Shown one piece after another: positions 40,397-58,932 of a stretch of DNA of 58,932 bases. The notes beneath the pieces are model-generated. The model saw nothing but the letters and a program-made list of their open reading frames with translations, ran no database searches and was not told the origin of the DNA. Position 1 is the first letter of the stretch; each line of letters starts with the position of its first letter. Made by a program: the position numbers and the translations under genes. The stretch is from an uncultured Dorea sp. (lineage in GTDB: Bacteria; Bacillota; Clostridia; Lachnospirales; Lachnospiraceae): the NCBI GenBank assembly GCA_934295165.1, contig CAKRAT010000003.1:1-58932 (forward strand), written 5' to 3'.

Positions 40397-41790
40397 TTAA
40401 ATATTCAACAATACCCTGCACTTTTTCCTATTGCATACGATTGCGTATTTCAATACTTTCTGAATATCATCTTCTTCAAATATTTCTTCATAATGCTTCT
40501 CGTCGATCTGCTTTAGCGCCTTTATTCCAGCTGCTTCCATCTCTTCTGTTTCCGAATACTTTACTTCGATAATAATTCCTGTGTCGCAATCGTCAATCCA
40601 GATCATGATATTACAAGATTGTAATAGTCTCCGTCCGGCTCCCCTCTTTGCGTCAGATATCCGGTCATGAAAAGCGTACTCCATATATTTTCTACCGAGC
40701 TGTACAAATCCTTGTACGTCATCTCCTGACTGATTTTCTTTTGTACCGAACCGCCATTCACTAATTGTCCTAATTCTGCCTTCGTCAATTCTTTTCCTGT
40801 ATATCTGCCTTCGACAAAATGTCTTATCACGTCATTACTGCTTGTATTGATCCAGTAATTCTGTGGACCCGCTTTGGGATCATCCAGATGGTCTTCACAG
40901 TAATTGATCACATCCCATGGACAATACACATCAACATTTCCAAAACGGTACCCGTCATACCATTCTTTTACCGTCTCGTGGTGATCTTCCAGCTGATAAT
41001 ACTCCAGCATTTCTTTTACTTCCTTATCCGTAAATCCAAAGCTTTCATCAAACGACACCTTTGTGATCGGATAGATTTTAAAATTATTAAGTCCTGTAAA
41101 TATACTTTCTTTTGCTACCCACAGACATCCCGTAAGCACTGCAAATTTAAGGCTGTCATTCGTTTTTAATGCATTTTCAAAAAGATTGCGTATCAGGATC
41201 ACCATCTCGTCATAATATCCCTGTTCGTTCGCCTTCGCAAGTGGTACATCATATTCATCAATCAGGACAATCACTTTTTCCTGATAATGTTTTTCCAGAA
41301 GTTCCGTCATCTCCCGGATGCTGTAAGCAATGACTTCTTCCGTCATCTCTGGCTGTAGCAATTCATGAAAAAGTATTTTTTCATTATGATCTAACCGCGT
41401 ACTTTCTTCCAGAAATCTGAGCCTTCTTGCTTCTTCACTGATTGCTTTTCCAAGCAGCCGGCATGCTCCCTGATAAGAGCCTGCGCTGATTCCTTTCAGA
41501 CTGATCGTTACAACCGGAAATTTTCCCATATATGTGTCACATAATTTTTTATTATCTGCGATATATAACCCGTCAAATAATGTTTTATCCATTCCTATCT
41601 CAAAGAAATGTCTGAGCATGCTCATGTTCAATGATTTGCCAAAACGTCTTGGCCGCGTAAATAAATTGGCCTCTCCCCATTTATCAAGTAACTGCTCTAT
41701 TAATTTTGTTTTATCTACATAGTAAAAATCATCTCTTCGGATTTTTTCAAAATTATCTATGCCTATCGGCAGTTTCTTCTTTTTTGCCAT
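40397..41790 (-). pseudogene. PF09820/PF08011 ATPase with an internal deletion
   Basis: From 41790 the frame encodes the PF09820 ATPase (IGIDNFEKIRRDDFYYVDKT, FTRPRRFGKSLNMSML, IVLIDEYDVPLAKA) up to TGYLTQRGEPDG, where it shifts and stops at 40603. A second frame then gives only the final nuclease part (IIIEVKYSETEE, YAIVCNRKKC) to 40397. Compared with the intact copy at 29556-31271, about 110 residues are missing between the two parts, and the junction is out of frame. This second full-size copy is thus dead. Confidence 0.85.
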
Positions 41791-42746: not shown

Positions 42747-43536
42747 CTCTTCTAAGGCACAGCGGACCTTTTTGTCAAAATACCGGCTGCATAAAAGAAT
42801 CGTCACCACCGCCCGCATTCTTCTTCTGGTCATCTTCCTGTCCGTCTGGGAACTGACTGCCTCACACCAGATCATCGATTCTTTTATCTTCAGCAGTCCT
42901 TCTAAAATTGCCCAGTGTTTCCTCGACATGGTGGCAGACCGCAGCATCTTCCTGCATCTTGGCATCACCTTATATGAAACGATTGTAAGTTTTCTTCTGG
43001 TTATTGTCTTCAGTATCCTGACTGCGGTCCTTCTGTGGTTCAGCAAGAAACTTTCGGAAATTCTGGAGCCGTATCTGGTTGTCTTAAACAGCCTTCCAAA
43101 ATCAGCACTGGCCCCGCTTCTCATCGTGTGGCTCGGTGCCACACGTACCACGATCATCGTTGCCGGTATGTCAGTGGCAATCTTCGGAAGCATCCTGAAT
43201 CTGTATACCAGTTTTATGTCTACGGATCCGGGAAAGATGACGCTGATCTATACGCTTGGCGGAAAACGCAGGCAGGTACTGACCAAAGTCGTGCTTCCCA
43301 GTTCGATTCCAGCGATCATCAGTAATATGAAGGTAAATATCGGGTTGTGTCTGGTCGGGGTGATTATCGGGGAATTTCTGGCTGCGAAAGAAGGTCTGGG
43401 GTATTTGATTATTTACTCCAGTCAGGTTTTCAAAATGGATTGGCTTCTCATGAGCATCTGTCTCCTCTGCCTGTTTGCCATGTGTCTGTATGCCGCCATC
43501 AACCTTCTGGAATCCTGGTATCTGAAAAAAAGATAA
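42712..43536 (+). CDS. ABC transporter permease (SsuC type)
   Basis: A 274-residue membrane protein with about six helices and the EAA-loop region GGKRRQVLTKVVLPSSIPAII followed by GLCLVGVIIGEFLA. It pairs with the ATPase just upstream, which it overlaps. Its last 36 codons and the terminator behind it are duplicated at 44952-45095, on the far side of a HEPN/MNT/Uma2 insert. Confidence 0.9.
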   Translation: MKKTAKTSFRFDSSKAQRTFLSKYRLHKRIVTTARILLLVIFLSVWELTASHQIIDSFIFSSPSKIAQCFLDMVADRSIFLHLGITLYETIVSFLLVIVFSILTAVLLWFSKKLSEILEPYLVVLNSLPKSALAPLLIVWLGATRTTIIVAGMSVAIFGSILNLYTSFMSTDPGKMTLIYTLGGKRRQVLTKVVLPSSIPAIISNMKVNIGLCLVGVIIGEFLAAKEGLGYLIIYSSQVFKMDWLLMSICLLCLFAMCLYAAINLLESWYLKKR

Positions 43537-43561
43537 GAGATGGACATTTCTGTTCATCTCT
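43429..43561. repeat. direct repeat, left copy (permease 3' end plus terminator)
   Basis: About 133 bases match 44952-45084 with roughly six substitutions and no gaps, at an offset of 1523 bases. The copy contains the end of the permease gene, its stop codon and the terminator stem. The two copies flank the Uma2, HEPN and MNT genes. Confidence 0.9.
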
Positions 43562-44951: not shown

Positions 44952-45059
44952 TTCAAAATGGATTGGCTTCTCATGAGCATCTGTCTCCTCTGCCTGTTCG
45001 CCATATGTCTGTATGCCGCCATCAACCTTCTGGAATCCTGGTATCTGAAAAAACAATAA
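44952..45059 (+). pseudogene. duplicated C-terminal fragment of the ABC permease
   Basis: This in-frame segment encodes the last 35 residues of the permease at 42712-43536 (FKMDWLLMSICLLCLFAICLY and so on to the C terminus), with two or three changes. It has no start or upstream domain. It belongs to the right copy of the 133-base direct repeat (44952-45084). Between 44812 and 44951 I see no other feature. Confidence 0.9.
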
Positions 45060-45095
45060 GAGATGGACATTTTCGTTCATCTCTTATCTTTTTTC
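45059..45095 (+). terminator. duplicated terminator
   Basis: The right-hand copy of the ABC terminator: AGAGATGGAC and GTTCATCTCT arms with a short loop, followed by a T-rich tail. It now lies between convergent units, the permease fragment and the signal peptidase gene ending at 45129. Confidence 0.8.
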
Positions 45096-45128: not shown

Positions 45129-45779
45129 TTATTCTTCTCGTTCCTGATTCGCTTTCTGATCATCTTCCTGTCCCTGTTCCAGTTTTTTCTCTTTGATCTG
45201 CCGGATAGCTTCTTTTACAGCCGCCTCTTCCTCTTCTCTTGCAATTCTTTGTGCCATGCGTACGGTTCCAAGCAGGTTTGTGATCAGGATAACCGCCAGC
45301 GGAATCAGAATGATCGGGATGAATACCAGTGGGTTGGCAACAAGTCTTGACACTTTTCCGATGATTTTGGATGATACCACTACCTTTCCGATCAGATACT
45401 GCTCTTCCACTCCATAGGAATCTACAACATTGTTATGATCTCCCTTTGTGATAAATATCCGTTTTCCATCTTGTTCCTGGATTTCTACCACACGATGTGT
45501 ATTCACCGCTCCGTCAAGCAGCGGGTCCTGTGAATAAAAGGAAATGACGTCGTTTTCTTTTATTTCCTGCGGATCGGTTTTCTTTACAATAATCATGGTG
45601 TCTACATCATATGTCGGCTTCATGCTGCCGGTCGTAACACGTAGTGCCGTGTAGCCGAATACCGTAGGTGCATCCCCGGATTTAGTAAATATCACTGTAC
45701 ACAGGACAAAAACTGCAGCCGCTATAATCAGTACCGACAGAAGATTGATGATTCCATAAATAATTCTTTTTAGTTTCAT
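45129..45779 (-). CDS. SipW-type signal peptidase I, second copy, with a charged tail
   Basis: A 216-residue enzyme of the ER/archaeal-like (SipW) branch. The first membrane helix is at residues 9-30. The catalytic Ser52 is in TGSMKPTY, His95 in VNTHRVV (His rather than Lys as the base), and Asp114 in KGDHNN. A second helix spans about 150-170. The last 45 residues are cytosolic and almost purely Glu, Lys, Gln and Arg. It is the last gene of the secretion cluster and overlaps the coiled-coil gene by one base. It probably cleaves SipW-type exports. Confidence 0.88.
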   Translation of the reverse strand: MKLKRIIYGIINLLSVLIIAAAVFVLCTVIFTKSGDAPTVFGYTALRVTTGSMKPTYDVDTMIIVKKTDPQEIKENDVISFYSQDPLLDGAVNTHRVVEIQEQDGKRIFITKGDHNNVVDSYGVEEQYLIGKVVVSSKIIGKVSRLVANPLVFIPIILIPLAVILITNLLGTVRMAQRIAREEEEAAVKEAIRQIKEKKLEQGQEDDQKANQEREE

Positions 45780-47644
45780 TATTTATCTTCCCCGTCTTCT
45801 TTTGTATTCTTGCGTTCCTGACGTTCTTTTAATGCCTGGACAATATAACGGGACAGGCTGTTGGCTTCTGCTTTTGCCTCTGCCTTTTCTTTTGCTTTTT
45901 GGGCAGTCTCGACTTCTGTTTTTGCCGTTCTTCTGATTGCTTCGATCTGCTGTTCATTTTCTTTCTCGATTGCTGCGATCCTAACGGAGGCTTCATTCTG
46001 CACCGCTGCGATTCTGTCTGCCGCCTCTTTCTGTGCAATTGCCGCTTTTTCTGCAGATTCATGCTGCGCTGTCACGACTGCTTCTTTTGCTTTTGTCTGT
46101 GCTGCTGCAACTGCTTCTTCTGCCTCGTGCTGTGCTGCCGCAATCTTCTCTTCTGCTGCTGCCTGCACTGCCGCAATCTTCTCTTCCGCTGCCTGCTGCA
46201 CTGCCTTACTCTCTTCTTTTGCCTTCACCTGCGCTGCCGCGATCTCTTTCGCTGCTTTTGCTTCTGCCGCCGCTACAGTCTCCTGTATTTCACGCTCCAT
46301 CATGTCAACTGCAGCTCTGGCATCTGCTTCTGCTTTCTTCACAGCATCCTCCGCTTCTGTTCTTGCCTTCTTTTCTTCCTGCAGACGCTTCTCATAAGAC
46401 TCCCGTTCTTCTGTCATCTGGTTTTCCAGTGCTTCCCGTTCTTCTTCTAACTGCTTTCTGGTCTGCTCAAGGAATTCCATCTGCTGATTCAGTGCATCCA
46501 TCTGCCATTCCAGATCTGACACGGAGTTCTCCAGTTCTTCACATCTTGCCGTCTCTTCTCTTAACTTTTCTTCCGCATCCAGCTGTGCCTGTGTCACCTC
46601 TTCCACAAATACCTTGCGTACTTCCACATCCGGAATATTGCAGTCTTCTACGATTTCTTCTTTAATCTCTTTTACGAATTTCGGCTTGACCGGCTCCAGC
46701 TTCTTTGTTTCAATCTCACTCATTTTGCGGGGATCGGACACCAGCAGACTCTTGAATACCGTATAGTTCGTGATCATGTTGATATACATCTGTAACAGGT
46801 ATTCTTCGTCGAACTGTAAGGTGGAATCCTGTTCTTCGATCGTATAGCCGACTTCGTCATAGCCTTCGATAAACTGCCACAATTTATAACAGGTTCGGTA
46901 ATCCGGGTCTTTCATCATCAGGTTCGTTCTCTGGATCGGGCTTCGTACCTTCGCACAGCCGTTCATGATGTCACAGAATGAACTCGCACGCAATGTTCTG
47001 GACATTCTGCGCACACGGTCGATCCGTTTGAACAGATCCATGTTGTCGTTATCATTTTCCACCAGACTCTGACGGTTCTTGATCGTCATCTCGACCTTGT
47101 AAGAGATCTCTTCATACGCATCATCGACCTTACTTTCCATGCTCATTACATTGCAGGTCTCGTCGCCTGTCGACCAGAAGATTACATCCGTTCTCTTATC
47201 TACGAATGCGAACAGACGCTGGATCAGATGATAGACAAATCTGTTCTCATACAGATCATAACTTTCTTCTGTCGTTACATTCAGGATCTTGGTCGGCATG
47301 ATCTCTCCGGCATCATTCATCGTCACAAACTGTGTATTCTGACTCAGATGTCTTACACTGTCTGCCGTGATCTTCTTCGCCAGTGCGACCGGCACTACTT
47401 CCTCGGATGTCGTGATAAATCTTCTCGGCTTATCCACAATGTTGAAGATGGCTTCGATTCCCTCTTCCACTTCTGTAAGCCAGCGTTCATCGACTACTTT
47501 GTGCAATATCCGGTTTTTCTGCTCCAGGGTATTGTCCCCTGCCTGTATCATCTCGAACAGGTATTGGAAATACCTGTCTTCTTCCAGTGCATACCCTACG
47601 CCTTCTGTATATTTCGAATATAATTCATTAATTGTATCCGCCAT
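45779..47644 (-). CDS. DUF2357-like protein with a very long coiled coil
   Basis: About 621 residues. The N-terminal 340 residues are globular; ESYDLYENRFVYHLIQRLFAFV at about 130-150 recalls the YENRF helix of DUF2357, the partner of McrB-like ATPases in some nuclease systems. From about residue 350 to 600 it is an almost unbroken coiled coil of Glu, Ala, Lys and Gln with repeats such as AAEEKIAAVQ and AAEEKIAAAQ. No PD-(D/E)XK nuclease motif is visible at the C terminus, unlike in the nuclease partners. The ATG at 47644 is preferred over a GTG two codons earlier. The AAA+ gene is directly upstream. Confidence 0.7.
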   Translation of the reverse strand: MADTINELYSKYTEGVGYALEEDRYFQYLFEMIQAGDNTLEQKNRILHKVVDERWLTEVEEGIEAIFNIVDKPRRFITTSEEVVPVALAKKITADSVRHLSQNTQFVTMNDAGEIMPTKILNVTTEESYDLYENRFVYHLIQRLFAFVDKRTDVIFWSTGDETCNVMSMESKVDDAYEEISYKVEMTIKNRQSLVENDNDNMDLFKRIDRVRRMSRTLRASSFCDIMNGCAKVRSPIQRTNLMMKDPDYRTCYKLWQFIEGYDEVGYTIEEQDSTLQFDEEYLLQMYINMITNYTVFKSLLVSDPRKMSEIETKKLEPVKPKFVKEIKEEIVEDCNIPDVEVRKVFVEEVTQAQLDAEEKLREETARCEELENSVSDLEWQMDALNQQMEFLEQTRKQLEEEREALENQMTEERESYEKRLQEEKKARTEAEDAVKKAEADARAAVDMMEREIQETVAAAEAKAAKEIAAAQVKAKEESKAVQQAAEEKIAAVQAAAEEKIAAAQHEAEEAVAAAQTKAKEAVVTAQHESAEKAAIAQKEAADRIAAVQNEASVRIAAIEKENEQQIEAIRRTAKTEVETAQKAKEKAEAKAEANSLSRYIVQALKERQERKNTKEDGEDK

Positions 47645-47714
47645 CTTCACTCGTTTCCTTTTTCTAAATTTTATCTGTATATTGTCAGATTCTTCCGTTC
47701 CGCGATTGCAACGA

Positions 47715-47744
47715 ATGCCATACAGGGTTCTCCCCGCATGGCAT
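47715..47744. other. intergenic hairpin within the secretion cluster
   Basis: ATGCCAT (47715-47721) pairs with ATGGCAT (47738-47744), with an inner GGG/CCC. There is no T-run on the minus strand, so it is more likely an mRNA processing or stability element between the AAA+ and coiled-coil genes than a terminator. Confidence 0.45.
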
Positions 47745-47749
47745 ACATT

Positions 47750-49390
47750 TTAATACAGGTTCTGAATACGTCTCAGGTACGCTTTGCTGTCCTGCATTCC
47801 CTCTGTTCCAAATGTCTTCTCAATGTAATTGATCAGACCTGTGATCTCATCTCTTACAAAGCTGACATTCATACTTTCAAATTTCTTCAGCACCTTACGT
47901 GCGATAATATAATCCATTCCGCCAAGCTCCGTGCCGCCGCATGCGACATAGACCGGGATAAAATCATATAACTGTTTCATAATACGGTTACCAAATGAAA
48001 GCTTGAATCTTGTGATCAGATAATTATCAAGTTTCTGCATTTTCTCCATCAGCTCATCGCTGATCGGGTGTTCCACTTTGGCTTTCTGGAACAGATATTC
48101 CAGATGCTCTGCCGTAATATCACAATGCGGCTGCGGTTCACATTCGAATGCTTCCGCTCTTTCATTCAGCTCGATCGGCATCGCACGGTCATATACCTTA
48201 TCTGTGATCGTAAATGTGGAATCGTCATTATTGGCGGTTCCGATGAACCAGGTAGAATCTGCCACATGGATCTTACCGTCTTCCATCTTCACCGGATCAC
48301 CTTCCCATGCTGTCGGAACCAGATCAAGCACCCACTCGTCCTTGCTCGGCATTTCCAACACGGATAACATTTCCGCAAAATAATACTCGATACGGGCAAG
48401 GTTCATCTCGTCCAGTACGATCAGTGTCGGATCTTTTCTGTAATTGGCCTCATACAAAGCTCTTAAGAATTCTGTCTCGTTAAATTTCTTCGAGAATTCG
48501 TTAAAATATCCAAGTACTTCCGAACGGTCACGGTAAGACGGCTGTACGGATACAATTGTCGCCGGATTATCCATGTAACGGCTGAATGAGTACGGAAGAC
48601 TTGTCTTACCTGTACCGGAGATACCTTCCAGGATCAGAAGCTTACTTGCCGCCATACCGGCCACAAATCTGCGGACGATCTCAGGCGTGTAGTAAAGTCC
48701 CATCTGGCTTGCCGCAAACAGACGATACCCTTCCGTAAAGTCTTCCAGCGATATCTCATTGTCATACTGCGGATACTGAAAACTTCTGTACTTCGCATCC
48801 ACGAGTGAAAGCTTCGGGAAACGGTGAGCCGTATTAACTTCTTCTTTTCCTTCGATCACTGCGCGCACAAGCGGAGCCTTGTCCGGATCGGTATTGCCCG
48901 CTGCCATAGCTGCCACAGCCTGACCGGCCGGGATCTCATTCCCCGTAACATTCTCCAGGCTTGGGATCACATCATCCGTAAGCGCAGACGCACCCATGTA
49001 CGGAATACGTTCCACACCACCCATTGCATTGACTTTCAGTGCCAGAATATTGTTCTTTTCTTCCATCAGATCCAGTACCTGCTTGTTCAGTCTGCCAATC
49101 TCTCTGTATAACGTTGCATTATCCGCATTATCTGCCTTCAACTGATGATGCAGCATTGCACGCCGGATCAGCAATATAATGATCACTACCGGAATTGCAA
49201 GCAGCAAGAGCATCAAAATCACAGAAAGAATCTTGCCCGGAATACTAAGGGTCGGGAAATAGGTCTTGAATATCATAAAATATTCAATCCAGCCTGTTAT
49301 AAATAATTTTAAAAATGCCGCCAGCCACGTCACCAGGTTATAGACAACCTGTGACAGCAGCTCATAGGCAAACTTTAAAAATTCACTCAC
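47750..49390 (-). CDS. membrane-anchored McrB-like (AAA_5) AAA+ ATPase
   Basis: A 546-residue protein. Two hydrophobic stretches (about 11-40 and a clear membrane helix at 53-76) are followed by a short coiled coil (about 85-115), a Thr/Ala/Pro-rich linker, and a dynein-related AAA+ domain. Walker A is EGISGTGKTS (256-264), Walker B is LIVLDEMNLARIEYYFAEML (323-342), and sensor 1 is FIGTANNDDST (382-392). The LDEMN motif is typical of McrB and MoxR-like ATPases. The membrane anchor speaks against a role in DNA restriction. It ends 100 bases before the coiled-coil gene and starts six bases after the signal peptidase. Confidence 0.85.
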   Translation of the reverse strand: MSEFLKFAYELLSQVVYNLVTWLAAFLKLFITGWIEYFMIFKTYFPTLSIPGKILSVILMLLLLAIPVVIIILLIRRAMLHHQLKADNADNATLYREIGRLNKQVLDLMEEKNNILALKVNAMGGVERIPYMGASALTDDVIPSLENVTGNEIPAGQAVAAMAAGNTDPDKAPLVRAVIEGKEEVNTAHRFPKLSLVDAKYRSFQYPQYDNEISLEDFTEGYRLFAASQMGLYYTPEIVRRFVAGMAASKLLILEGISGTGKTSLPYSFSRYMDNPATIVSVQPSYRDRSEVLGYFNEFSKKFNETEFLRALYEANYRKDPTLIVLDEMNLARIEYYFAEMLSVLEMPSKDEWVLDLVPTAWEGDPVKMEDGKIHVADSTWFIGTANNDDSTFTITDKVYDRAMPIELNERAEAFECEPQPHCDITAEHLEYLFQKAKVEHPISDELMEKMQKLDNYLITRFKLSFGNRIMKQLYDFIPVYVACGGTELGGMDYIIARKVLKKFESMNVSFVRDEITGLINYIEKTFGTEGMQDSKAYLRRIQNLY

Positions 49391-49395
49391 AGTTC

Positions 49396-50178
49396 TTATC
49401 CCTCCCCGTTCTGATCTCCTGCCTTCTCTCCGTCCTTCTTTTCTTCGTCTTTCTTCGCTTTCTTAAGCTCTTCTTCTACCTGCGCACGAAGTGCCTCTGC
49501 CTCTTCTTTCAGACGTTTCGCCTCTTCAAGTGCCGCCTGTGCTTCGTCTTTTTCTTTTGCAGCTTTTTCTGCATCTTCCTTCTGCACTCTGGCATTGGCA
49601 ATCTCTTTTGCATTCTCTACCGCAATTGCCTTCTTCAGTCTGATACTGATCATGATCAGATTATATACCTGATAAATGAAGAACAGTAACATCGGAAGTA
49701 CGATCACGATCAGAAATCCCATACTGCTTGACAGGAAGTTCATAACCTTACCAAAGCCGGAAATGTGTCCGATATATTTACCTACGATATCTCCGTCAGA
49801 GATTACATGCTGGTCCGTAATTCCTTTATTGTTATCACCGATCGTGGTGTAACTTCTTACACCATTGACTTCTTCAATCTTCTGGATACGGTGAGTATTA
49901 AGTGCATACTGGTTATCGATGATCGTGTGGAATGTGATGATGTCGCCTTCTTTTAATTTGGACGTGTCACATTTCTTAATAAAGATCAGATCTCCCGACT
50001 TGAATGTCGGTTTCATGGAATTGGTCTCTACCGTCATCGGTGTATAACCAAGAATATCCGCCACATGCTGGTCATCTCTTGTTGCCATGGTTGTGAACGC
50101 ATAAAGCGCTGCCAGCAAAATAATTGCCCACAGAATCACGCTGATCACAATCGTGCCTGCCTTTTTTACTGTCTTCAT
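49396..50178 (-). CDS. SipW-type signal peptidase I, first copy, with a long coiled-coil tail
   Basis: A 260-residue enzyme. Membrane helix at about 8-31; catalytic Ser54 in ETNSMKPTF, His96 in LNTHRIQ, Asp115 in TIGDNNKG; second helix at about 153-175. The last 80 residues are a charged helix (KEDAEKAAKEKDEAQAALEE and similar) pointing into the cytosol, far longer than in ordinary SipW. The tail resembles the coiled coil of the DUF2357-like protein in composition and could bind it. It lies between the four exported proteins and the AAA+ gene. Confidence 0.9.
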   Translation of the reverse strand: MKTVKKAGTIVISVILWAIILLAALYAFTTMATRDDQHVADILGYTPMTVETNSMKPTFKSGDLIFIKKCDTSKLKEGDIITFHTIIDNQYALNTHRIQKIEEVNGVRSYTTIGDNNKGITDQHVISDGDIVGKYIGHISGFGKVMNFLSSSMGFLIVIVLPMLLFFIYQVYNLIMISIRLKKAIAVENAKEIANARVQKEDAEKAAKEKDEAQAALEEAKRLKEEAEALRAQVEEELKKAKKDEEKKDGEKAGDQNGEG

Positions 50179-50212
50179 AGTTCTTTCTCCCTTATATGTA
50201 AAGTCTTTCTAT

Positions 50213-50246
50213 ACAGAGAACCTGCCACTGGCAGCCCCTCCTGCAT
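50213..50246. repeat. REP-like dispersed repeat, partial copy inside the cluster
   Basis: Contains the CTGCCACTGGCAG palindrome of the units at 40291-40376, followed by a shortened tail. It sits in the 113-base gap between the last exported protein and the signal peptidase gene. Its hairpin may mark an mRNA end or a processing site. Confidence 0.6.
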
Positions 50247-50291
50247 ATTTATATAATAAAGTCTCAAACCGCAGTCATGTTCCTGCTGACA

Positions 50292-51110
50292 TTACTTTGA
50301 AACTTTTTTCCCTGATTTTGAAGAAGTCTTTTTCTCTGTTGCTTCTCCTGTGAAACGCATCCGGATTGCGTAATCCGCAGCTTTGATACTGTCTGTACAT
50401 GCCGGATCTGTCCCTTCCATCCAGATATGGACCAGTACTGGCTTGTCTACTTCTTTTTTCAAAGAGAACATTGTGTTATTCTTATTCAGCTGCATACTCC
50501 CAGCCGGTGGAAGTCCGAATGTAATAGCATTGTCCGCAACCGAACGGGTATCTCCCATTCCCTGGTCATAGATCCAGGTCTGTCCATCCGCAGTAAATGC
50601 GATCCGCATCGACTCCGGAAGGGAAGCATTCCCGGAACTGATCCGTGTTCCGTCTGCGGAATCTGCACTTGAATCTGCGCTGTTCAGATGCACGATCATA
50701 TCTTTCTCCGCCATAAAATGCAGCGTAAATGTCAGATATGCTCCTTTGGTATCCGGCACAACCGTTCCATTCTCATAGGTAAATGTACTATAATCTATCG
50801 TCGTTACCGGTTCGAGCGGTGTTGTCTGCATAGAGAAACCTTTGTCCCGCTGCATCCTTGCCGCAATGGATTCAAAGGAAATCTTCTTCACATAATCTTT
50901 GAATTTCTCATGTGCATCCAGATCCATCCGCATATCCACATCCGCCGCAATATCCAGACTCATCGTTCGGACCTTTGTCCTGTCCGCAATGGAGAACCAC
51001 GCCACCGTAGCCGCTGTAATCGCTGCCAGTGCAAGTAATACCAGCAGGACCGACGTATAGAGCCGGCTGCGGATGATACGGTTTTCTTCGTTATCTGCCC
51101 TCTTCTTCAT
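50292..51110 (-). CDS. SipW-dependent secreted protein, paralogue 4
   Basis: A 272-residue protein. A basic N terminus is followed by a hydrophobic helix (TSVLLVLLALAAITAATVAWFS, residues 19-40) ending in AWFS, the SipW-type cleavage region. The mature part is beta-rich and has PLEPVTTIDYSTFTY, corresponding to the PVST segment of its paralogues, and IWMEGTDPACTDS, corresponding to their EGCD-x2-C motif but with the first Cys replaced by Thr. It ends in a Lys/Ser-rich tail. The start overlaps the previous stop by one base. Confidence 0.75.
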   Translation of the reverse strand: MKKRADNEENRIIRSRLYTSVLLVLLALAAITAATVAWFSIADRTKVRTMSLDIAADVDMRMDLDAHEKFKDYVKKISFESIAARMQRDKGFSMQTTPLEPVTTIDYSTFTYENGTVVPDTKGAYLTFTLHFMAEKDMIVHLNSADSSADSADGTRISSGNASLPESMRIAFTADGQTWIYDQGMGDTRSVADNAITFGLPPAGSMQLNKNNTMFSLKKEVDKPVLVHIWMEGTDPACTDSIKAADYAIRMRFTGEATEKKTSSKSGKKVSK

Positions 51111-51973
51111 CAGTTGCCCTCCTTCTGGTCAAGTACGCCATAGAATGCAAGATGAATACCGGCCTCATTCAGCTGTACACTGTCTGAGCAGTCCGGATCA
51201 CAGCCTTCCAGATAGAAATACACATCAACCGCATAGATCTTACCCAGTTCCATGCTGACAAGCGTTTTCCCCGGAAGTGTCATCTGATCATTCGTAAAGC
51301 TGATCATATAATCGCTGACCGGCACCGATGGATCAGAAGCTGCGTATACACTATTACCATTATACCCCAGAACCTGATTCTTGCCCAGTGTTTTTCCATT
51401 TACTTCTGTGTTATATACCTGTGCATTTTCCGGATTTTCCGTCTCACTCAGTCTTAAAATCACCGGCGACAACGTGTCATCTCCGAATACCAGTCCGAGT
51501 CTTGACGCATTTAACAGGTATCCGTCTGCCGACTGTCCCAGAAGTCCGTCACTCTGGTCAAGATAAAGGTTCATCCTGCTGCCCGCCGGCCATCCTTCTC
51601 CCTGCGCTCTTAAATACACTCTTCCATGATAATAATTGGCTTCATTCTGTACCACGCTGAATGCCGTTGCCTTCCCCGCACCGGTAAACGGTGCATACAC
51701 GAACGTTCTAAGATCCGCCGTTGACACTGGCAAAAGAGTCCCTGCATCCGTCTGATTCACCTGTGTGATCGGTGCAGTCTCCACACTCTGAAAGCCGCTC
51801 CCGCCAGTGCTGCTGATCTGCAGCTCCAGCGTCTCGTCTCCGGTCCTTGCCGTTGCCGTATTCGTCTGTACCGCCCGGTTAGAACTGAACCAGGCAAGGG
51901 TTGCCGCCGCAAGTGCCATAATCGCAAATAACGTTGTCACACCCAGAAACCACGTACGGAAACTCCGTTTCAT
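51110..51973 (-). CDS. SipW-dependent secreted protein, paralogue 3
   Basis: A 287-residue protein with a short basic start and a hydrophobic helix ending at TLAWFS (residues 25-30). The mature part contains TLLPVSTADLRTFVYAPF, a YYHGRVYLRAQ strand and, near the end, YFYLEGCDPDCSDS followed by HLAFYG. These features repeat in the same order in its neighbours. It resembles TasA/camelysin-type matrix proteins in its leader only; the rest is not recognised. AAGGTGAG precedes the ATG. Confidence 0.78.
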   Translation of the reverse strand: MKRSFRTWFLGVTTLFAIMALAAATLAWFSSNRAVQTNTATARTGDETLELQISSTGGSGFQSVETAPITQVNQTDAGTLLPVSTADLRTFVYAPFTGAGKATAFSVVQNEANYYHGRVYLRAQGEGWPAGSRMNLYLDQSDGLLGQSADGYLLNASRLGLVFGDDTLSPVILRLSETENPENAQVYNTEVNGKTLGKNQVLGYNGNSVYAASDPSVPVSDYMISFTNDQMTLPGKTLVSMELGKIYAVDVYFYLEGCDPDCSDSVQLNEAGIHLAFYGVLDQKEGN

Positions 51974-52094
51974 TACGTCTCACCTTCTTCTCTCTTTTCC
52001 TCTCTGTCTACTATCTGCCATCTTTCGCCAGTCAGTGTCTGCTTTTTCGTTATCGGTGTCAATATTTTCACAGCTGGCCGCATGACATAATCTG

Positions 52095-53006
52095 TTACTG
52101 ACTGTCCACTCCCGCAAATGCAAGCTGGATGTCTGAACTTCTGCTCTGCACCGCATTGATGCACTGATCATCGCAGCCCTCCAGATAGAGCCAGTATTCT
52201 ATCGTTGCGACCTCATTTACCTCAAGCTTAATCAGCCTGGTCGTTCCCGGATTAAAGTCATTATCATCATTTCCGGCATTTGCCATATAGTCCGAAAGTC
52301 CGGCAGACGGATCATTTACATACTGTGCCTGTCCATTTCCATTTACCGAAGACACAACTGTCGAAGTTCCCGGAACCGTCTGCTTTGACTCCGCACTTCC
52401 GGTCGATCCAAGCTCGTCCAGGCGGAAAATATACGTTCTCGTTCCTTCTCTTGCCGTGATCTTCATACCGAACCGCATCGCCGCAAGTGCCTGCGGATCT
52501 GTTCCAAGCTTCAGCTGGTCTTTGTTAAAATACACATCACAGGAGGCATTCAGACACTGTAGATAGACCATTCCATGCAGCGTCTCTGTATCCACTTTGC
52601 TGTCCGCATTACTGTACAACACCGCCATGCCGTCCTTATTCTGCGCTGTCACTTTATAAAAATGTGTCAGATTTGCCGTTGATACCGGCTTCAATGAATC
52701 CGGATTGCCTGTATATACCAGTTCACAGGTCTTGTCAAACGGTCCGCCTGCATTCTCCGAGATCAGAAGCGAGGTGCTTCCCTCACTGACGGTTCCTGCC
52801 ATCGGCGTTACATATGTAGATGCCCTTCCCGACAGAGAGAACCATGCATACGTTGTCCCGGCTGCTACTACGATCAGAAGTAATAGGCTTGCGATTGCAG
52901 TGCGGTAAGAATGCTGCAGCTGTCTGATATCCTGTTTTTCATTCTGTTTTCCGTCCTGTTTTCCGTCTTGTTCTTTTCTGTTCTGCTCTTTATTCACTTC
53001 TCCCAT
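52095..53006 (-). CDS. SipW-dependent secreted protein, paralogue 2
   Basis: About 303 residues. A long charged Lys/Gln/Asp cytosolic start (residues 1-35) precedes a hydrophobic helix ending at TTYAWFSL (about 52-59). The mature part has SLKPVSTANLTHFYKV, a MVYLQCLNASCDVYFN strand, and the ending YWLYLEGCDDQCINAV ... IQLAFAGV. GTG and ATG codons are adjacent at the start; ATG is preferred. It is separated from paralogue 3 by about 120 bases in which nothing was recognised. Confidence 0.78.
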   Translation of the reverse strand: MGEVNKEQNRKEQDGKQDGKQNEKQDIRQLQHSYRTAIASLLLLIVVAAGTTYAWFSLSGRASTYVTPMAGTVSEGSTSLLISENAGGPFDKTCELVYTGNPDSLKPVSTANLTHFYKVTAQNKDGMAVLYSNADSKVDTETLHGMVYLQCLNASCDVYFNKDQLKLGTDPQALAAMRFGMKITAREGTRTYIFRLDELGSTGSAESKQTVPGTSTVVSSVNGNGQAQYVNDPSAGLSDYMANAGNDDNDFNPGTTRLIKLEVNEVATIEYWLYLEGCDDQCINAVQSRSSDIQLAFAGVDSQ

Positions 53007-53033
53007 CACACAGCCGCCCCCCTTTCATTACTC

Positions 53034-53978
53034 TTATCTCACAATGCCCGCAAATGATATTGCAAGATTCTTCAGCGTCTGATCCGCCAGATTACCGGTA
53101 CAGTCCTCGTCACAGCCTTCCAGCCAGATATAGACTTCTACTTCCACCGATTCTCCCGGCTTTCCATCCGAGGTTCCGGACACTGTACATATTCTCAGAG
53201 ACTCCGGCTTTAATGTAACTTCTCCGGTTCCTCTGTTATAATTGCAGTATGCATCTGACGTATAGGGGGTAAATGCAACCGTTGTCCCATCTGTTCTGGT
53301 ACAATCCAGTACATTTCCCTCCTGTCCGTCATCTGTATTATACTGCGCCTGCGGATTCTTCTTATCACTGATTGCGAAAATGTACTCTCCCGCCATCTGT
53401 CGATTTCTTCCTGCCTGATGTACCACCAGTCCTACCCGGATTGCTGATGAAATTGGATTATTCTCATCACTGTCTATGAATCCGATATCGGACAGATAGA
53501 TGTCCGTCGGATTTCCATTCATTCTCAGAAACAGATTAGTGTGGAAGTAATCGCTGACCCGGCCGCCGGTAAATACCTTCGCAACAAGCGGTGCCTGATT
53601 TTCTCTTCCATCTTTAAATTCCGTCACTTTCTGGAAACCGCCACTGATCCGATTCGTCGATACCGGCGTCAGACGGCCTGCAAAACTGTCCAGTACAGCT
53701 GCCGAACTGTAGTCTCCATCATACGCATTACTGATCTGTAAGTTGACACCCGTTCCCGCCGCCATACGGACATTGGTCGTGTGGCGGTTAGTGTTATAGA
53801 TATACCATGCATAGGTCGCAGCCAGTGCAGCGAACAACATGATCAGGATTGCTATCATGGAAGAAGTGAGCCTGTTGCGCAGGTTCTTGGTTGTAGTATC
53901 TACGTTCTGACCGGTTGGTGCCGCTGTGTTCTGGTTGTTTGCTGTATTCGTGTTCGTTATTTCTATATGTTGTGACAT
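53034..53978 (-). CDS. SipW-dependent secreted protein, paralogue 1 (first gene of the cluster)
   Basis: A 314-residue protein. The Asn/Thr-rich cytosolic start (about 1-35) is unusual for a leader; a hydrophobic helix follows, ending in ATYAWYIYN (about 54-62). The mature part has GRLTPVSTNRISGGFQ, a NLFLRMNGNPTDIYLS strand and the ending YIWLEGCDEDCTGN ... LAISFAGIV. It shares these marks with the next three genes. A purine-rich GAAGGTGAG lies about 15 bases from the ATG, which is rather far. A predicted promoter lies upstream. Confidence 0.78.
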   Translation of the reverse strand: MSQHIEITNTNTANNQNTAAPTGQNVDTTTKNLRNRLTSSMIAILIMLFAALAATYAWYIYNTNRHTTNVRMAAGTGVNLQISNAYDGDYSSAAVLDSFAGRLTPVSTNRISGGFQKVTEFKDGRENQAPLVAKVFTGGRVSDYFHTNLFLRMNGNPTDIYLSDIGFIDSDENNPISSAIRVGLVVHQAGRNRQMAGEYIFAISDKKNPQAQYNTDDGQEGNVLDCTRTDGTTVAFTPYTSDAYCNYNRGTGEVTLKPESLRICTVSGTSDGKPGESVEVEVYIWLEGCDEDCTGNLADQTLKNLAISFAGIVR

Positions 53979-54361: not shown

Positions 54362-57300
54362 CTAATTGGCTTGATCAAAGTCTCTCGTGGAAATTATTCC
54401 ATTATAAAATTTTGCATTAGTGTAAATCAGGTAATCTGATACATCCTCTACTAAAGCTGCCCCAGACTTGTTCGCAAGATGCGCTGTCAGTATCACCTTA
54501 TAATTGGCATATTGAGCCTGAGCACCTAACTTTTCAAGTTCTTTATCTGACTTAACAAAATAAGAGAAATCAATCTCAAGCGGTTCCGTGGCAAGATTTT
54601 GTACCTGTGCGGATGTCAATGGTATCTCAAACTCATACTTTTGGTCAGAATTTTTTGAACTTCCTTTATTTAGACTTTCTGATGTAATTGATGTAATGTA
54701 ATCTGACATCTTCACATCCGTATATTTACCACTGTTGTCTTTCTTCTGCAATTCCAGGCTTCCTATCAGATAATAAGGATACGATTCATCCCCTTCCTCC
54801 GTCGTGTTCAGTCCTGCTATATCCGTCGCATTATAAATACCCTGTGTCGTAATGGTGACTCCACCATTATCAGCAACCTCTTTTCCATTAATACCCAGCT
54901 GGCTTACATTTCCATCGTTTGATACGGCATCATATGCATAATAATGAATCCGCACTGAATTTATCGTTTCGCGATAGAACTTTTGATGGTTTTCATTTGA
55001 ACCATTCATTAAACTTCCATCAAGACTGTTTTCACTATAGGCAATTGCCGCATTCACCGAAAATGTAATTCCAGATGTTGAATCATTTCCCTTTCTCATA
55101 GGGAACTGGGCATCCATCTCTCCTGCATAGTTTAATCTCAGCTGTGCTTCTATATTTACATTTGAGAAATCAACACCTTTTTTATTTTTCACAGTAATAT
55201 ACAGTACTCCATTGGAAACCTCATATGTATAATCCTGCTCCACAAGTGTACTCTCACCAAGTTTTACCGAAGATACCCTTATATCCTGCGTCAGGATCTG
55301 ATCTGTTCCTGTATCATCCTTGCTTGTATTATGCAATCGGACCGCAAACCGGAAATAAACCGGATCATTCTTGGCATAGCTTTCGAACTGATTCTTATAT
55401 TCGTTCGGAACCTCAATCTTTGCTTTCAGAAGCAGATCAATCGCATCATTTGTTCCGCTTTTGACAATAGTCGTTTTATCCTTTCCTTCCGGTGTGATGG
55501 ACACATCACTTACCTTATAGAAATCTCCAAGTGTATACATGTTCTGAGTTTCTCCCCCACGCTTTCTTGAAGGCAATGCAGATGGATCTGAACTTGTCAT
55601 TTTGTCAAGCCCCAGTGTTGCATTCTGTGTGATGACTCCGGAACCTTCCTGACAATTTACTGTAAGGTAATAAACTTCACTTACCTTTACTTCATCTGTT
55701 CCGGTTTTTCCGTCAATAACCAGTGTGTAGTACGTTGTATCTGCCGGATCATCAGAACTCTTTGGACCATAATAGTCATACTCTTTACCATTCCAGATTC
55801 TAATTGTCGCATTTTCTCTGGATGAAACTTTTTTCAGTGTACCGTTTGAAGCTTTATCATCTACTTTCAGCGGAAGCAGATCCGAAAGATAGACCGATGC
55901 ATACTTATTTTTCGAGGAATCCTCAAGATTATTAAACTTCAGAACTGCATCCTGTTTGTTCTCTGTACTTTCCAGTGCAGTTCCATTTCCGGTAAAGAAA
56001 GTGCTTCCTGCTTCCCGCCGGTTCATATCTATCAGAGTATATCTGGTTGATGCATTTCCAAGTGATCCTTTTGCATCTCCAAGCTTCACCTGCTTATCGT
56101 AACTCCATAGGAAATTCGTGCCTGCAGCAATATTCGCATTCCATTCATCTGCTGTCCAGATATAAGAATATGTCAACTGTGCCGTAAAATCTCCCTTATA
56201 ATTTGCCAAAATCGCAGCATTTGTGGTGTAAGCGGAATCATATGCACTGCTGCCGTTAAGCATCTTAATGGAAAACTCTGTCTGGAGAATTTTCTTTACC
56301 ACAACCGGAATATACAGATGATAGCCTTCTTGTGTATTACTTTTATTACTCGGATTTGCATAGTACACATCCAATACCGTGAACTGATCATTCTGGTTGT
56401 CGTGAGCTCCTGCCCTGACAGAAACAGAACCATCCGCCTTGTTAACAAGCAGTGAAGAAGAGTCCGTTTTAATAAACTTATTGCCCTTCCACTTATAAGT
56501 GGATGCCGTCATAGAGGTATACTGTGCTTTATCTGCAGTTGCAGAGCTAATTCCTGTCTGGTCACAGTTTGTCAAGACAGAAATATACTCGTGGATCATC
56601 TGGGTAATTTCTGAACTTTTAGATGTATCGATCACCAGAACTCCAAAATCATCCACTCCTGTATATGCTTCCTCTTTGCTCTCACTTGCTGTAAAGTATG
56701 TGGATATCTGACTCTTGTAATCGCCATTTTGAGGATCAAACTTTTCAGCCACATTGGCAAGTGTGTTATTCTTATTATATTTCACACGGTTATACCGCTT
56801 CTGATATGATGTCTGAGCGGCACTGTCCGTTAAATCTGAAACAATGCTGCTTTTTGCAGAATCAGATACTCCATCACTGGTCAGTGGGGTTCCTTTTCCT
56901 GCCTCAGCTGAAGAATACACTGTAAGGTTGGATACAGGATTGGTGACAACAGATGGTATTGTATCCGTCTGAAAGCTGCTGTTAAGATAATCCGCAAAAA
57001 TTACATAATTATCTTTATTTGTATTTCCGTTGTATTGAATAATGTTGTTTTGAATCGATTTTGTCACAAACGTTGCATCACTATTTCCATTTAGCTCATA
57101 TGGATAATTTCCATCTTTGACAGACAAACCAACAATTTGAATCGGGCTTAAATTGGTCGAATCTGTCTTTGCCCCCACGATTAATCCTAGATAACCATTA
57201 CGATATTGTTTACTATCCGTCATAGAGACAGAAGCGTATGGTGTATTTTGTTTCTTTGCTTCATCATAAAGGCCAATTACAGTTTTAAGATCAGCTATTT

Positions 57301-58932
57301 CCTTACCCTTACTTGTAAATTTTCCAGAATATATCTTATTACCCGTGGATTTGTTATTATATTCATACATATAGTTTAAACTTGTTTTTTCCTCACAATA
57401 AACACCTAACGTCAGATTTTCTGCCGAAATATTATAACCTAATATTTTCTCATTGGATTGTAAGTTACTAAGCCCCCCCTTATTTGCTCCAAGGAGCATC
57501 CCTGCTGCTCCAGCTACGCTATCGTTCGTTTTTTGTGGACTCTTTTCACTATTTGGATCATTATATTTGCTAGGAAGATACCTCCCCTCAAACTGTGTTA
57601 CCGCAACGTTACAGTCCTTATTTATAAAATTTTTAACTGTCAACTGCTTATTATTATATGCCTGTCCAAGTACCAGACCTGTTACTCCGTCCGATATAAC
57701 ATTGACATTTGTCATTGTCAAATTTTCTAATGTTATATTATATACACTACTTCCAATCACTCCTCCGATTCTAGGTGAACCAGAATAGGATGCAGCACCC
57801 TGTGAATAAATATCCATATTTGAAATGGTTGTATCCGTTAAGCTAGAGTGCTGATTCTGGTTATTTCCAATAATGCCACCTCCGCAGCCGGCATTTAACA
57901 CAGCACAACGATTAACAGAGATCGTATTCGCAATTGTTTTACTTGACGAAAATCCGGCTACCAAACCACAGGTAGGCGTCAGATAATAATCTGGCAGCTT
58001 TTGATAGGGGCTGATATATGGCATATTCAAATCAACTTCAACAACCGTATCCTCTATATTAACATTTTTGACGTTCAAGCTTTTGCTTGTATTTGTATAT
58101 GAGCCAACAACCCCTCCCAGTCCATAGTTACAGTTAAAAGCAAATCGCGGGCCATAAATACGAAGGCTCTGAACGGTAACATTATTCACAGTCATATCGC
58201 CACCATAATAATATCCAACAATTCCACCGCCACCACTGTAACCTTTTTCTTTCGCATCCAGTGTTAGCTTGTTTGTGTCATACATTTCCCGACAGGCATC
58301 TTTAACCCAGCCAATTTCTGAATCTTTTAATATACTATTTTCGGCGGAATTATTGATTATCAATGTTTTATCCGCTGCATTATAATATGTTCCTACAAAT
58401 CCACCTGCTGAATATCCGCCTTCTACCGTAACGTTTGTATACGAAGAATCTGTGAATGTATAATTACCAACTGTAGTACTAATTGTATTTAATTTTTCCG
58501 TAGTCGTTCTACTGGATTGTCCTACCACACCAAAGAATCCACCACTGTATTTGGCACCGGTTACCGTCAGGTCTTTACTCTTAACATTCACCAATGTGAC
58601 AGCACTTTTACTACAATCCTTTGCAGTCAGTCCCGCAAATCCACCTGCGGATGCCTCACCAATATAGTCGCTTTTTCCAGCCCGGTCTTCCTTATATAAA
58701 ATGCAGGCTTTTCCTGAAATTGTCAGGTACTGTACTGTTGTAGCACCTGCAATATTAATAACAGGGAATAATCCAATTCCCTGTGTCCACCAGCCTGTTT
58801 TTTCCTCGGAAGTATATTCCTTTACTTTCCGCGCAAGTGTAATGGTTCGGTTTTCTGTTCCCTTGTCTCCAACTGTCGTTGTTATTTTCAGTGTCCTGTT
58901 CTTGATGTCATGATTTGCATCTCCGTTATCCT
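54362..58932 (-). CDS. giant secreted GLUG-repeat protein, partial (start beyond window)
   Basis: At least 1523 residues; the frame stays open to the edge of the window, so the N terminus and any leader are missing. The visible N-terminal part has GLUG-like repeats (GGFAGLTAK, SGGFFGVVG, SAGGFVGTYY, GGGIVGYYY, LGGVVGSY, IGGVIGSS), about 25-60 residues apart, as in beta-helix surface proteins and adhesins. The second part, from about residue 700, is Ser/Thr/Asp-rich with beta-sandwich-like patterns. No LPxTG or membrane anchor is present at the C terminus, which ends in STRDFDQAN. Its link to the SipW cluster downstream is inferred from proximity. Confidence 0.8.
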   Translation of the reverse strand, partial: DNGDANHDIKNRTLKITTTVGDKGTENRTITLARKVKEYTSEEKTGWWTQGIGLFPVINIAGATTVQYLTISGKACILYKEDRAGKSDYIGEASAGGFAGLTAKDCSKSAVTLVNVKSKDLTVTGAKYSGGFFGVVGQSSRTTTEKLNTISTTVGNYTFTDSSYTNVTVEGGYSAGGFVGTYYNAADKTLIINNSAENSILKDSEIGWVKDACREMYDTNKLTLDAKEKGYSGGGGIVGYYYGGDMTVNNVTVQSLRIYGPRFAFNCNYGLGGVVGSYTNTSKSLNVKNVNIEDTVVEVDLNMPYISPYQKLPDYYLTPTCGLVAGFSSSKTIANTISVNRCAVLNAGCGGGIIGNNQNQHSSLTDTTISNMDIYSQGAASYSGSPRIGGVIGSSVYNITLENLTMTNVNVISDGVTGLVLGQAYNNKQLTVKNFINKDCNVAVTQFEGRYLPSKYNDPNSEKSPQKTNDSVAGAAGMLLGANKGGLSNLQSNEKILGYNISAENLTLGVYCEEKTSLNYMYEYNNKSTGNKIYSGKFTSKGKEIADLKTVIGLYDEAKKQNTPYASVSMTDSKQYRNGYLGLIVGAKTDSTNLSPIQIVGLSVKDGNYPYELNGNSDATFVTKSIQNNIIQYNGNTNKDNYVIFADYLNSSFQTDTIPSVVTNPVSNLTVYSSAEAGKGTPLTSDGVSDSAKSSIVSDLTDSAAQTSYQKRYNRVKYNKNNTLANVAEKFDPQNGDYKSQISTYFTASESKEEAYTGVDDFGVLVIDTSKSSEITQMIHEYISVLTNCDQTGISSATADKAQYTSMTASTYKWKGNKFIKTDSSSLLVNKADGSVSVRAGAHDNQNDQFTVLDVYYANPSNKSNTQEGYHLYIPVVVKKILQTEFSIKMLNGSSAYDSAYTTNAAILANYKGDFTAQLTYSYIWTADEWNANIAAGTNFLWSYDKQVKLGDAKGSLGNASTRYTLIDMNRREAGSTFFTGNGTALESTENKQDAVLKFNNLEDSSKNKYASVYLSDLLPLKVDDKASNGTLKKVSSRENATIRIWNGKEYDYYGPKSSDDPADTTYYTLVIDGKTGTDEVKVSEVYYLTVNCQEGSGVITQNATLGLDKMTSSDPSALPSRKRGGETQNMYTLGDFYKVSDVSITPEGKDKTTIVKSGTNDAIDLLLKAKIEVPNEYKNQFESYAKNDPVYFRFAVRLHNTSKDDTGTDQILTQDIRVSSVKLGESTLVEQDYTYEVSNGVLYITVKNKKGVDFSNVNIEAQLRLNYAGEMDAQFPMRKGNDSTSGITFSVNAAIAYSENSLDGSLMNGSNENHQKFYRETINSVRIHYYAYDAVSNDGNVSQLGINGKEVADNGGVTITTQGIYNATDIAGLNTTEEGDESYPYYLIGSLELQKKDNSGKYTDVKMSDYITSITSESLNKGSSKNSDQKYEFEIPLTSAQVQNLATEPLEIDFSYFVKSDKELEKLGAQAQYANYKVILTAHLANKSGAALVEDVSDYLIYTNAKFYNGIISTRDFDQAN

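Follow-up and report, generated by a model that had tools for sequence, protein, structure and literature searches.

A conserved clostridial gene cluster associating an McrB-like NTPase and its DUF2357 partner with SipW-like signal peptidases and candidate fiber subunits

In a 58,932-nucleotide stretch of an uncultured Dorea sp. genome (contig CAKRAT010000003.1; the whole stretch is called the window here), eight genes on the minus strand encode four exported paralogues (e1 to e4), two SipW-like signal peptidases, a membrane-anchored McrB-like AAA+ nucleoside triphosphatase (NTPase) and a coiled-coil protein with a DUF2357 domain. Recurrence of this arrangement in related genomes indicates that the cluster is a real, conserved and single system. 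We surmise that the operon probably builds and gates surface fibers, with a nuclease-less McrBC-type NTPase organizing or timing SipW processing and, in the wider system, being coupled to cyclic di-GMP (c-di-GMP). All eight open frames that a preliminary description of this DNA had placed on one strand at 45129-53978 are present, with spacings of -1 to 121 bases; from e1 to sipA the successive distances are 24, 121, -1, 113, 5, 99 and -1 bases. The features are as follows.

53034..53978, minus strand: e1, exported paralogue 1, with ATYAWY near the N-terminus and EGCDEDC near the C-terminus (open reading frame, BLASTP)
52095..53009, minus strand: e2, exported paralogue 2 (open reading frame, BLASTP)
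51110..51973, minus strand: e3, exported paralogue 3, modeled as beta-rich (structure model and structural neighbors)
50292..51110, minus strand: e4, exported paralogue 4 (open reading frame, BLASTP)
49396..50178, minus strand: sipB, SipW-like signal peptidase whose C-terminal tail is long and charged (TIGR02228, 97.1 bits)
47750..49390, minus strand: McrB-like AAA+ NTPase with a membrane-anchored N-terminus and a short coil (profile, hydrophobicity)
49145..49324, minus strand: hydrophobic, predicted transmembrane segments of the AAA protein, residues 23-82
48215..48241, minus strand: NxD signature GTANNDDST of the AAA protein (alignment)
45779..47650, minus strand: DUF2357 (McrC N-domain) protein with a C-terminal coiled coil (Pfam, model)
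46661..47650, minus strand: McrC-like N-domain region of the DUF2357 protein, residues 1-330
45782..46660, minus strand: coiled-coil region of the DUF2357 protein, residues 331-623 (judged by eye)
45129..45779, minus strand: sipA, second SipW-like signal peptidase (TIGR02228)
54362..58930, minus strand: giant surface-protein open frame upstream of e1, at least 1522 aa long and cut by the window edge

Gene order in related genomes

From 123 loci on genome contigs that encode an AAA relative, we took the best 80 and classified their genes with core-domain profiles, counting loci cut by contig ends as edges and not as misses. These 80 loci, which come from Blautia, other Lachnospiraceae, Ruminococcus (including R. 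albus 8), Oscillospiraceae and unplaced Clostridia, display a nearly invariant order of SipW-AAA-DUF2357-SipW: a SipW gene is positioned directly upstream of the AAA gene in 74 of the 75 loci with room for it, the sole exception having a run of N; the DUF2357 gene follows the AAA gene in all 76 loci with room; and the second SipW gene, for which 57 loci have room, comes directly next in 49, is fused to the DUF2357 gene in 5 and lies within 5 kb in the remaining 3. The exports obey the order e1-e2-e3-e4 in 37 of the 42 loci with such genes above 90 bits, the other 5 holding only the later genes. Since the gene order recurs across the 80 loci, the possibility of a chance neighborhood was rejected. 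A second type of locus, found in Ruminococcus and its kin (L049 to L080), encodes an AAA protein of about 45% identity and lacks clear orthologues of e1-e4 next to the core; a single anchored export (see below) is found there in most of these loci, and some have other exports with a STYAWF-type signal nearby. Three alignments were used for the protein comparisons: A1 with 68 rows (two window exports plus 35 of 36 and 31 of 36 listed orthologues), A2 with 67 rows (66 of 69 plus the window sequence) and A3 with 57 rows (56 of 75 plus the window sequence).

The preliminary description had regarded an McrBC-like NTPase, SipW-like peptidases and exports as one system, and had proposed looking for AAA and coiled-coil genes that occur apart from SipW. 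In a class sample of 291 genomes, three of which (G001, G135 and G268, the latter two as L100 and L101) are the genomes of L001, L029 and L068 and thus were already among the 80 loci, the AAA profile matched 26 genomes at E 1e-10 or better. With AAA scores of at least 500 bits, SipW adjoins the AAA-DUF2357 pair in 12 of 12 genomes (including the three already counted), although in L107, L109 and L110 the SipW gene comes after the DUF2357 gene and another gene lies directly upstream of the AAA gene. Separation was confined to weaker matches, comprising three genomes at 366-469 bits without SipW (L113, L114 and L115, the last a partial AAA gene at a contig end) and 13 of 13 remote loci with AAA scores below 130 bits, where neither SipW, exports nor a DUF2357 core was found above 25 bits, some of the contigs being short (L118 3.5 kb, L121 4.0 kb) and the AAA of L128 being under the detection threshold. 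The proposed linkage holds in related loci. The DUF2357 core profile (E 1e-5 or better) picked out 15 of the 291 genomes. Fourteen of these belong to the 15 whose AAA match is strong; in the remaining one, G153, the AAA match is remote. In a phylum sample of 398 genomes, a strong AAA match was seen in the centre genome only, with remote matches in 49 others (best E 1.9e-36); 29 remote phylum loci yielded the N-x-D pattern, by a simple search, in 24, a DUF2357-like neighbor in 12 and SipW in none, this last being weak evidence because the flanks extend only about 1 kb.

L113 has the arrangement AAA-DUF2357-AAA near a 1383-aa transglutaminase-domain protein, and may reflect another membrane use of the NTPase pair. 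Remote relatives of the NTPase occur in 261 plasmid records (159 from Klebsiella), all below 60% identity, and on two phage records, e.g. MT835511 at 31%. In 15 loci, the second SipW gene is followed, about 4.6 kb past the AAA start, by a gene whose 150-aa product has one apparent membrane helix and no confident Pfam family (e.g. L060:5735-6187).

Peptidases, NTPase pair and exports

The strongest evidence that the DUF2357 protein and SipW act together is their fusion: five of the 80 loci (L052, L060, L069, L071 and L078) contain both in one open frame of 943-1020 aa, with the DUF2357 core N-terminal (424-474 bits) and the SipW core C-terminal (172-196 bits), separated by a long coiled-coil-like stretch in the two fusion sequences inspected. 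The fusion puts DUF2357 on the same side as the N-terminus of SipW, a side that we take to be cytoplasmic. The peptidases of the window share 28% identity by BLASTP, and both exceed the cut-off of the NCBIfam signal peptidase I model TIGR02228. Accordingly, the earlier assignment of two SipW-type peptidases stands at the level of this family, but not at that of the Bacillus SipW model NF046067, on which they score 81 and 87 bits against a cut-off of 190; because these scores are so far under the cut-off, "SipW-like" is the safe name. A Ser/His pair marks the endoplasmic reticulum-type signal peptidases, and both the Ser (SMxP) and the His (HR) are conserved across a 131-row alignment. Of the SipW proteins, 129 have their end intact; C-terminal tails of at least 20 aa are found in 124 of them, and the median over all 129 is 60 aa.

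The DUF2357 protein, described before as a 621-residue coiled-coil protein, has 623 aa when read from a GTG start and 621 aa from an ATG two codons later. It matches PF09823 (DUF2357) at E 2.7e-10 (40.3 bits vs. a cut-off of 23.3), and the structure model of residues 1-334 resembles the McrC N-domain by VIA, with residues 331-623 appearing as coil by eye. A PADLOC search with this protein gave ZorA at E 0.19. A nuclease in this protein had been singled out as an observation that would speak against a single system. A Pfam scan of the whole protein yielded only DUF2357 at E up to 1, a PDB sequence search with the whole protein returned four chance-level matches and no nuclease, and a PDB profile search with the DUF2357 alignment gave no match. 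We have therefore rejected a nuclease on the basis of Pfam and PDB sequence searches, with the structure model speaking for residues 1-334 only; these data show in part that the protein, in which the preliminary description had seen no nuclease motif, is nuclease-free.

For the AAA protein, the profile of 57 rows found E. coli McrB as its best PDB match (E 0.002), McrB not being recovered in a PDB search with the single sequence; the protein also lies below the Pfam AAA cut-offs. The signature GTANxDDST, i.e. NxD and not NxxD, was present in 81 of 81 aligned AAA sequences. As previously noted, the protein has a membrane anchor, in the form of three hydrophobic segments inside residues 23-82, and at least two such segments are found within the first 120 residues in 77 of the 81 sequences, followed by a stretch that looks coil-like by eye. 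At E 0.001 or better there are at least 8000 AAA relatives; among the 120 matches listed, all are at least 88% identical.

Given these membrane and coil features, one may ask if the AAA and DUF2357 proteins are simply a static FtsB-like scaffold of membrane segments and coiled coils that places the peptidases, for instance at the division site or pole, with hydrolysis controlling scaffold assembly and exerting no force on fibers. Coil-like stretches on the AAA protein, the DUF2357 protein and the peptidase tails would suit such a scaffold, and Bell et al. (eLife 2024, PMC11090510), in the part of that paper covered here, likened the N-terminus to FtsB. On the other hand, the 57 aligned rows show no variation in the Walker A, Walker B and NxD residues, suggesting real catalysis. 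The lack of any DivIC/FtsB family among the Pfam matches of the AAA protein is a weaker point, as it does not exclude FtsB likeness. Taken together, we consider the scaffold unlikely.

We also entertained a quality-control role in which the ring would act as an unfoldase, pulling uncleaved or jammed exports from the membrane or the Sec channel. A membrane AAA+ protein beside slow, membrane-held precursors would be in keeping with the logic of AAA+ machines. However, we know of no McrB-type ring that acts as a protein unfoldase, and among ten neighbor proteins scanned there was no ATP-dependent protease or chaperone, the only protease being a prepilin peptidase whose cluster is found in 6 loci; accordingly, we hold this role to be improbable. 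The prepilin peptidase itself is of the type IV class (A24_N_bact, E 2.1e-26 in L014:599-1441), is encoded about 5 kb before the AAA gene in L014 and five other loci, and its six loci include several close relatives.

An anti-phage system of McrBC ancestry, to which the membrane and surface parts would be incidental, is in our estimation very improbable. In its favor, the AAA protein matches the PADLOC candidate model PDC-M26A (E 1.8e-36), and the NxD branch includes the CoCoNuT defense systems (PMC11090510, in the part covered). Against it, the DUF2357 protein has no nuclease by sequence. Among neighbor proteins from 12 loci (111 of 113 listed), 11 PADLOC families had a match at E 1e-10 or better, each to a single protein and none of them recurring, and the commonest Pfam family was EAL (8 of 111). 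A single AAA match was found in each of 24 distinct genomes, although in the class sample G151 and G217 each have a pair of strong matches and G204 has a weaker pair, and no phage or plasmid record searched covers 80% of the AAA protein. On the strength of the non-recurring PADLOC neighbors, the prevalence of EAL and the phage and plasmid searches, a defense island was rejected as the main interpretation.

We return to the fiber-building operon and its candidate subunits. As claimed earlier, e1-e4 are four secreted paralogues, related to one another by BLASTP (strongest pair e2/e3 at E 2e-22, weakest e2/e4 at E 0.001), each with a single N-terminal hydrophobic segment ending in [AT]-T-x-A-W-[FY] and with EG[CT]DxxC near the C-terminus. 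The pattern T.AW[FYLI] near the N-terminus was found in 31 of 35 e1, 36 of 37 e2, 36 of 38 e3 but just 22 of 41 e4 orthologues, and this T.AW motif resembles the TasA signal. The NCBIfam SipW-signal model did not match e1-e4, a Pfam scan of the four returned no family above its cut-off, and a PDB profile search with the export alignment gave chance-level matches only. The e3 model is beta-rich, and its top structural neighbors, with middling scores, are the TasA fiber (8aur) and FimA pilins of type 1 pili, with archaeal bundling pili (7ueg) also among the best. These data support in part, at the level of the e3 model, that e1-e4 are TasA/pilin-like subunits.

The PilZ/EAL-anchor module

A subset of the exports, here called the anchor, has a transmembrane helix and, in the sequences inspected, no T-x-A-W signal. 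Its profile draws a clean line between 54 proteins scoring at least 229 bits and the next at 88, and the anchor is present in 45 of the 80 loci. The gene immediately upstream of the anchor encodes a PilZ or an EAL protein in 43 of these 45, the other two being contig ends; the partner is PilZ in the Lachnospiraceae type and an EAL-domain protein in the Ruminococcus type. HD-domain proteins, identified by cluster, are near 4 of the 80 loci. Among the class-sample loci, 9 have the anchor (L100 and L101 repeating L029 and L068), with PilZ, EAL or HD upstream in 7 and none of the three upstream in L109 and L110. The PilZ proteins carry the motifs of putative c-di-GMP effectors, namely (D/N)xSxxG and an upstream Arg; in one cluster drawn from related loci, (D/N)xSxxG is kept by 17 of 17 members. 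The motif DDFGxG is absent from 22 of 24 EAL proteins, and the two that keep it are longer and not beside an anchor; the loss of this motif suggests that the EAL partners of the anchor are probably not active phosphodiesterases.

In 20 genomes chosen for a test of PilZ, the protein was found in 19, with exactly one copy in 17 of the 19. It lies within 8 kb of the AAA gene and is paired with the anchor in 13 of the 19, which is not an unbiased rate because the genomes were chosen after their PilZ neighbors had been seen and some are close relatives. In the other six, PilZ is 11-28 kb off or on another contig, and the anchor gene directly follows it in 6 of 6, a pairing that was not known beforehand.

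Profiles for PilZ, EAL, HD and the anchor found nothing in the 59-kb window. In the two closest loci, L001 and L002, PilZ and the anchor come straight after the second SipW gene, and we infer that the genome of this window carries the module as well. At the same position, the window has an apparent insert. An ABC permease gene has its 3' end duplicated in a direct repeat of 133 bases (43429-43561 and 44952-45084, 95% identical), the copies of which enclose minus-strand genes for Uma2, HEPN and nucleotidyltransferase proteins; this block thus looks as if it had been inserted between the operon's end and an ABC transporter.

Known systems, proposed mechanism and the upstream region

In Bacillus, the SipW/TasA/TapA system combines a SipW-type peptidase with exported fiber subunits, has a single peptidase and comprises no NTPase or McrC-like protein. 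The same likeness and the same differences apply to the sipW-bsaABCRSD operon of Clostridium perfringens as given in the available part of PMC7395162, this being the nearest characterized clostridial relative in function that we found. The window operon, in contrast, has two long-tailed peptidases, four subunits and the NTPase pair. With the McrBC and CoCoNuT type IV restriction systems it shares an McrB-family NTPase and an adjoining DUF2357 partner, but differs from them by its membrane anchor, its link to secretion genes, the lack of a recognized specificity domain and the lack of a nuclease by sequence; McrC homologues of the CoCoNuT branch can also be nuclease-less (PMC11090510, in the part covered).

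The preliminary description was mistaken in knowing of no description of this combination, since one paragraph of Bell et al. (eLife 2024, PMC11090510) names it CoCoPALM: McrB GTPases of the NxD kind whose N-terminus holds membrane and coil segments, and which are associated with signal peptidases and with McrC homologues bearing a coiled coil. The authors guessed a role in pilus assembly and deferred fuller treatment to a later paper. Three of five CoCoPALM features, i.e. the NxD McrB-like NTPase, the signal peptidase genes and the coiled-coil McrC homologue, are present in the window, and the likeness extends to the membrane and coil N-terminus of the NTPase and the predicted link to pilus assembly. 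That passage mentions neither exported subunits nor a DUF2357-SipW fusion, and the terms di-GMP, PilZ, EAL domain, pilin and TasA are absent from the main text of the paper. A literature search on CoCoPALM, and on SipW together with DUF2357, McrB, PilZ, c-di-GMP or TasA, found no description beyond PMC11090510, with the subscription literature mostly uncovered and a later CoCoPALM paper possibly in existence. As far as searched, the category has been named and not characterized, and what is new relative to the literature found is 1) the TasA/pilin-like exports; 2) the DUF2357-SipW fusion; and 3) the PilZ/EAL-anchor module with its link to c-di-GMP.

We postulate the following scheme for the fiber-building operon. 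The exports e1-e4 would carry a SipW-type signal that spans the membrane, and the two dedicated SipW-like peptidases would release them. The McrB-like NTPase, anchored under the membrane by its N-terminus, would form a ring, and the McrC-like DUF2357 protein, having lost its nuclease, would stimulate this ring in the manner of McrBC, for which ring activation by an McrC-type stalk is established (PMC11090510, in the part covered), while its coiled coil may hold both peptidases. Hydrolysis of nucleoside triphosphate would then organize or time the processing of subunits and their delivery into TasA-like fibers, and a TasA-like anchor that stays in the membrane, together with a PilZ or degenerate EAL protein, would couple the machine to c-di-GMP. 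Sequence comparison firmly provides the groundwork here (gene linkage, NxD, the DUF2357 domain, the fusion, the peptidase Ser/His pair and the PilZ/EAL-anchor pairing); ring formation, the nucleotide used, the step powered, the direction of c-di-GMP control and the fibers themselves are what we infer. The motor role suggested earlier, to move, assemble or gate fibers, may likewise apply. A more ambitious version, to which we give somewhat less than an even chance, would see a McrBC restriction motor turned into the engine of a c-di-GMP-controlled, SipW-dependent pilus-like system, the NTPase driving or gating both processing and donor-strand assembly and the anchor-PilZ/EAL pair acting as a switch; if true, this system would stand apart from the type IV, sortase and chaperone-usher pili.

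If the scheme is correct, gut clostridia own a fiber machine that runs on what was once a DNA-restriction motor and is connected to a PilZ protein, the sole one in 17 of the 19 PilZ-bearing genomes examined. The CoCoPALM class would gain likely substrates in the exports, a physical link in the fusion and a testable input signal in c-di-GMP, in loci from Lachnospiraceae, Ruminococcus and kin and with the at least 8000 AAA relatives in prospect.

The giant frame, 383 bases from e1, may be part of the cluster. The protein has no confident Pfam family and aligns at 24% identity over 1375 columns with a protein of 3399 aa that L169 encodes upstream of its e1. This relative (L169:232-10431) starts like an ordinary signal peptide, and two near-identical small genes lie between it and e1; in L168, the region matching the giant protein consists of two overlapping long frames. 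Outside the operon, the window also encodes a predicted AAA-ATPase_like protein at 40603-41790 (PF09820, E 5.7e-48).

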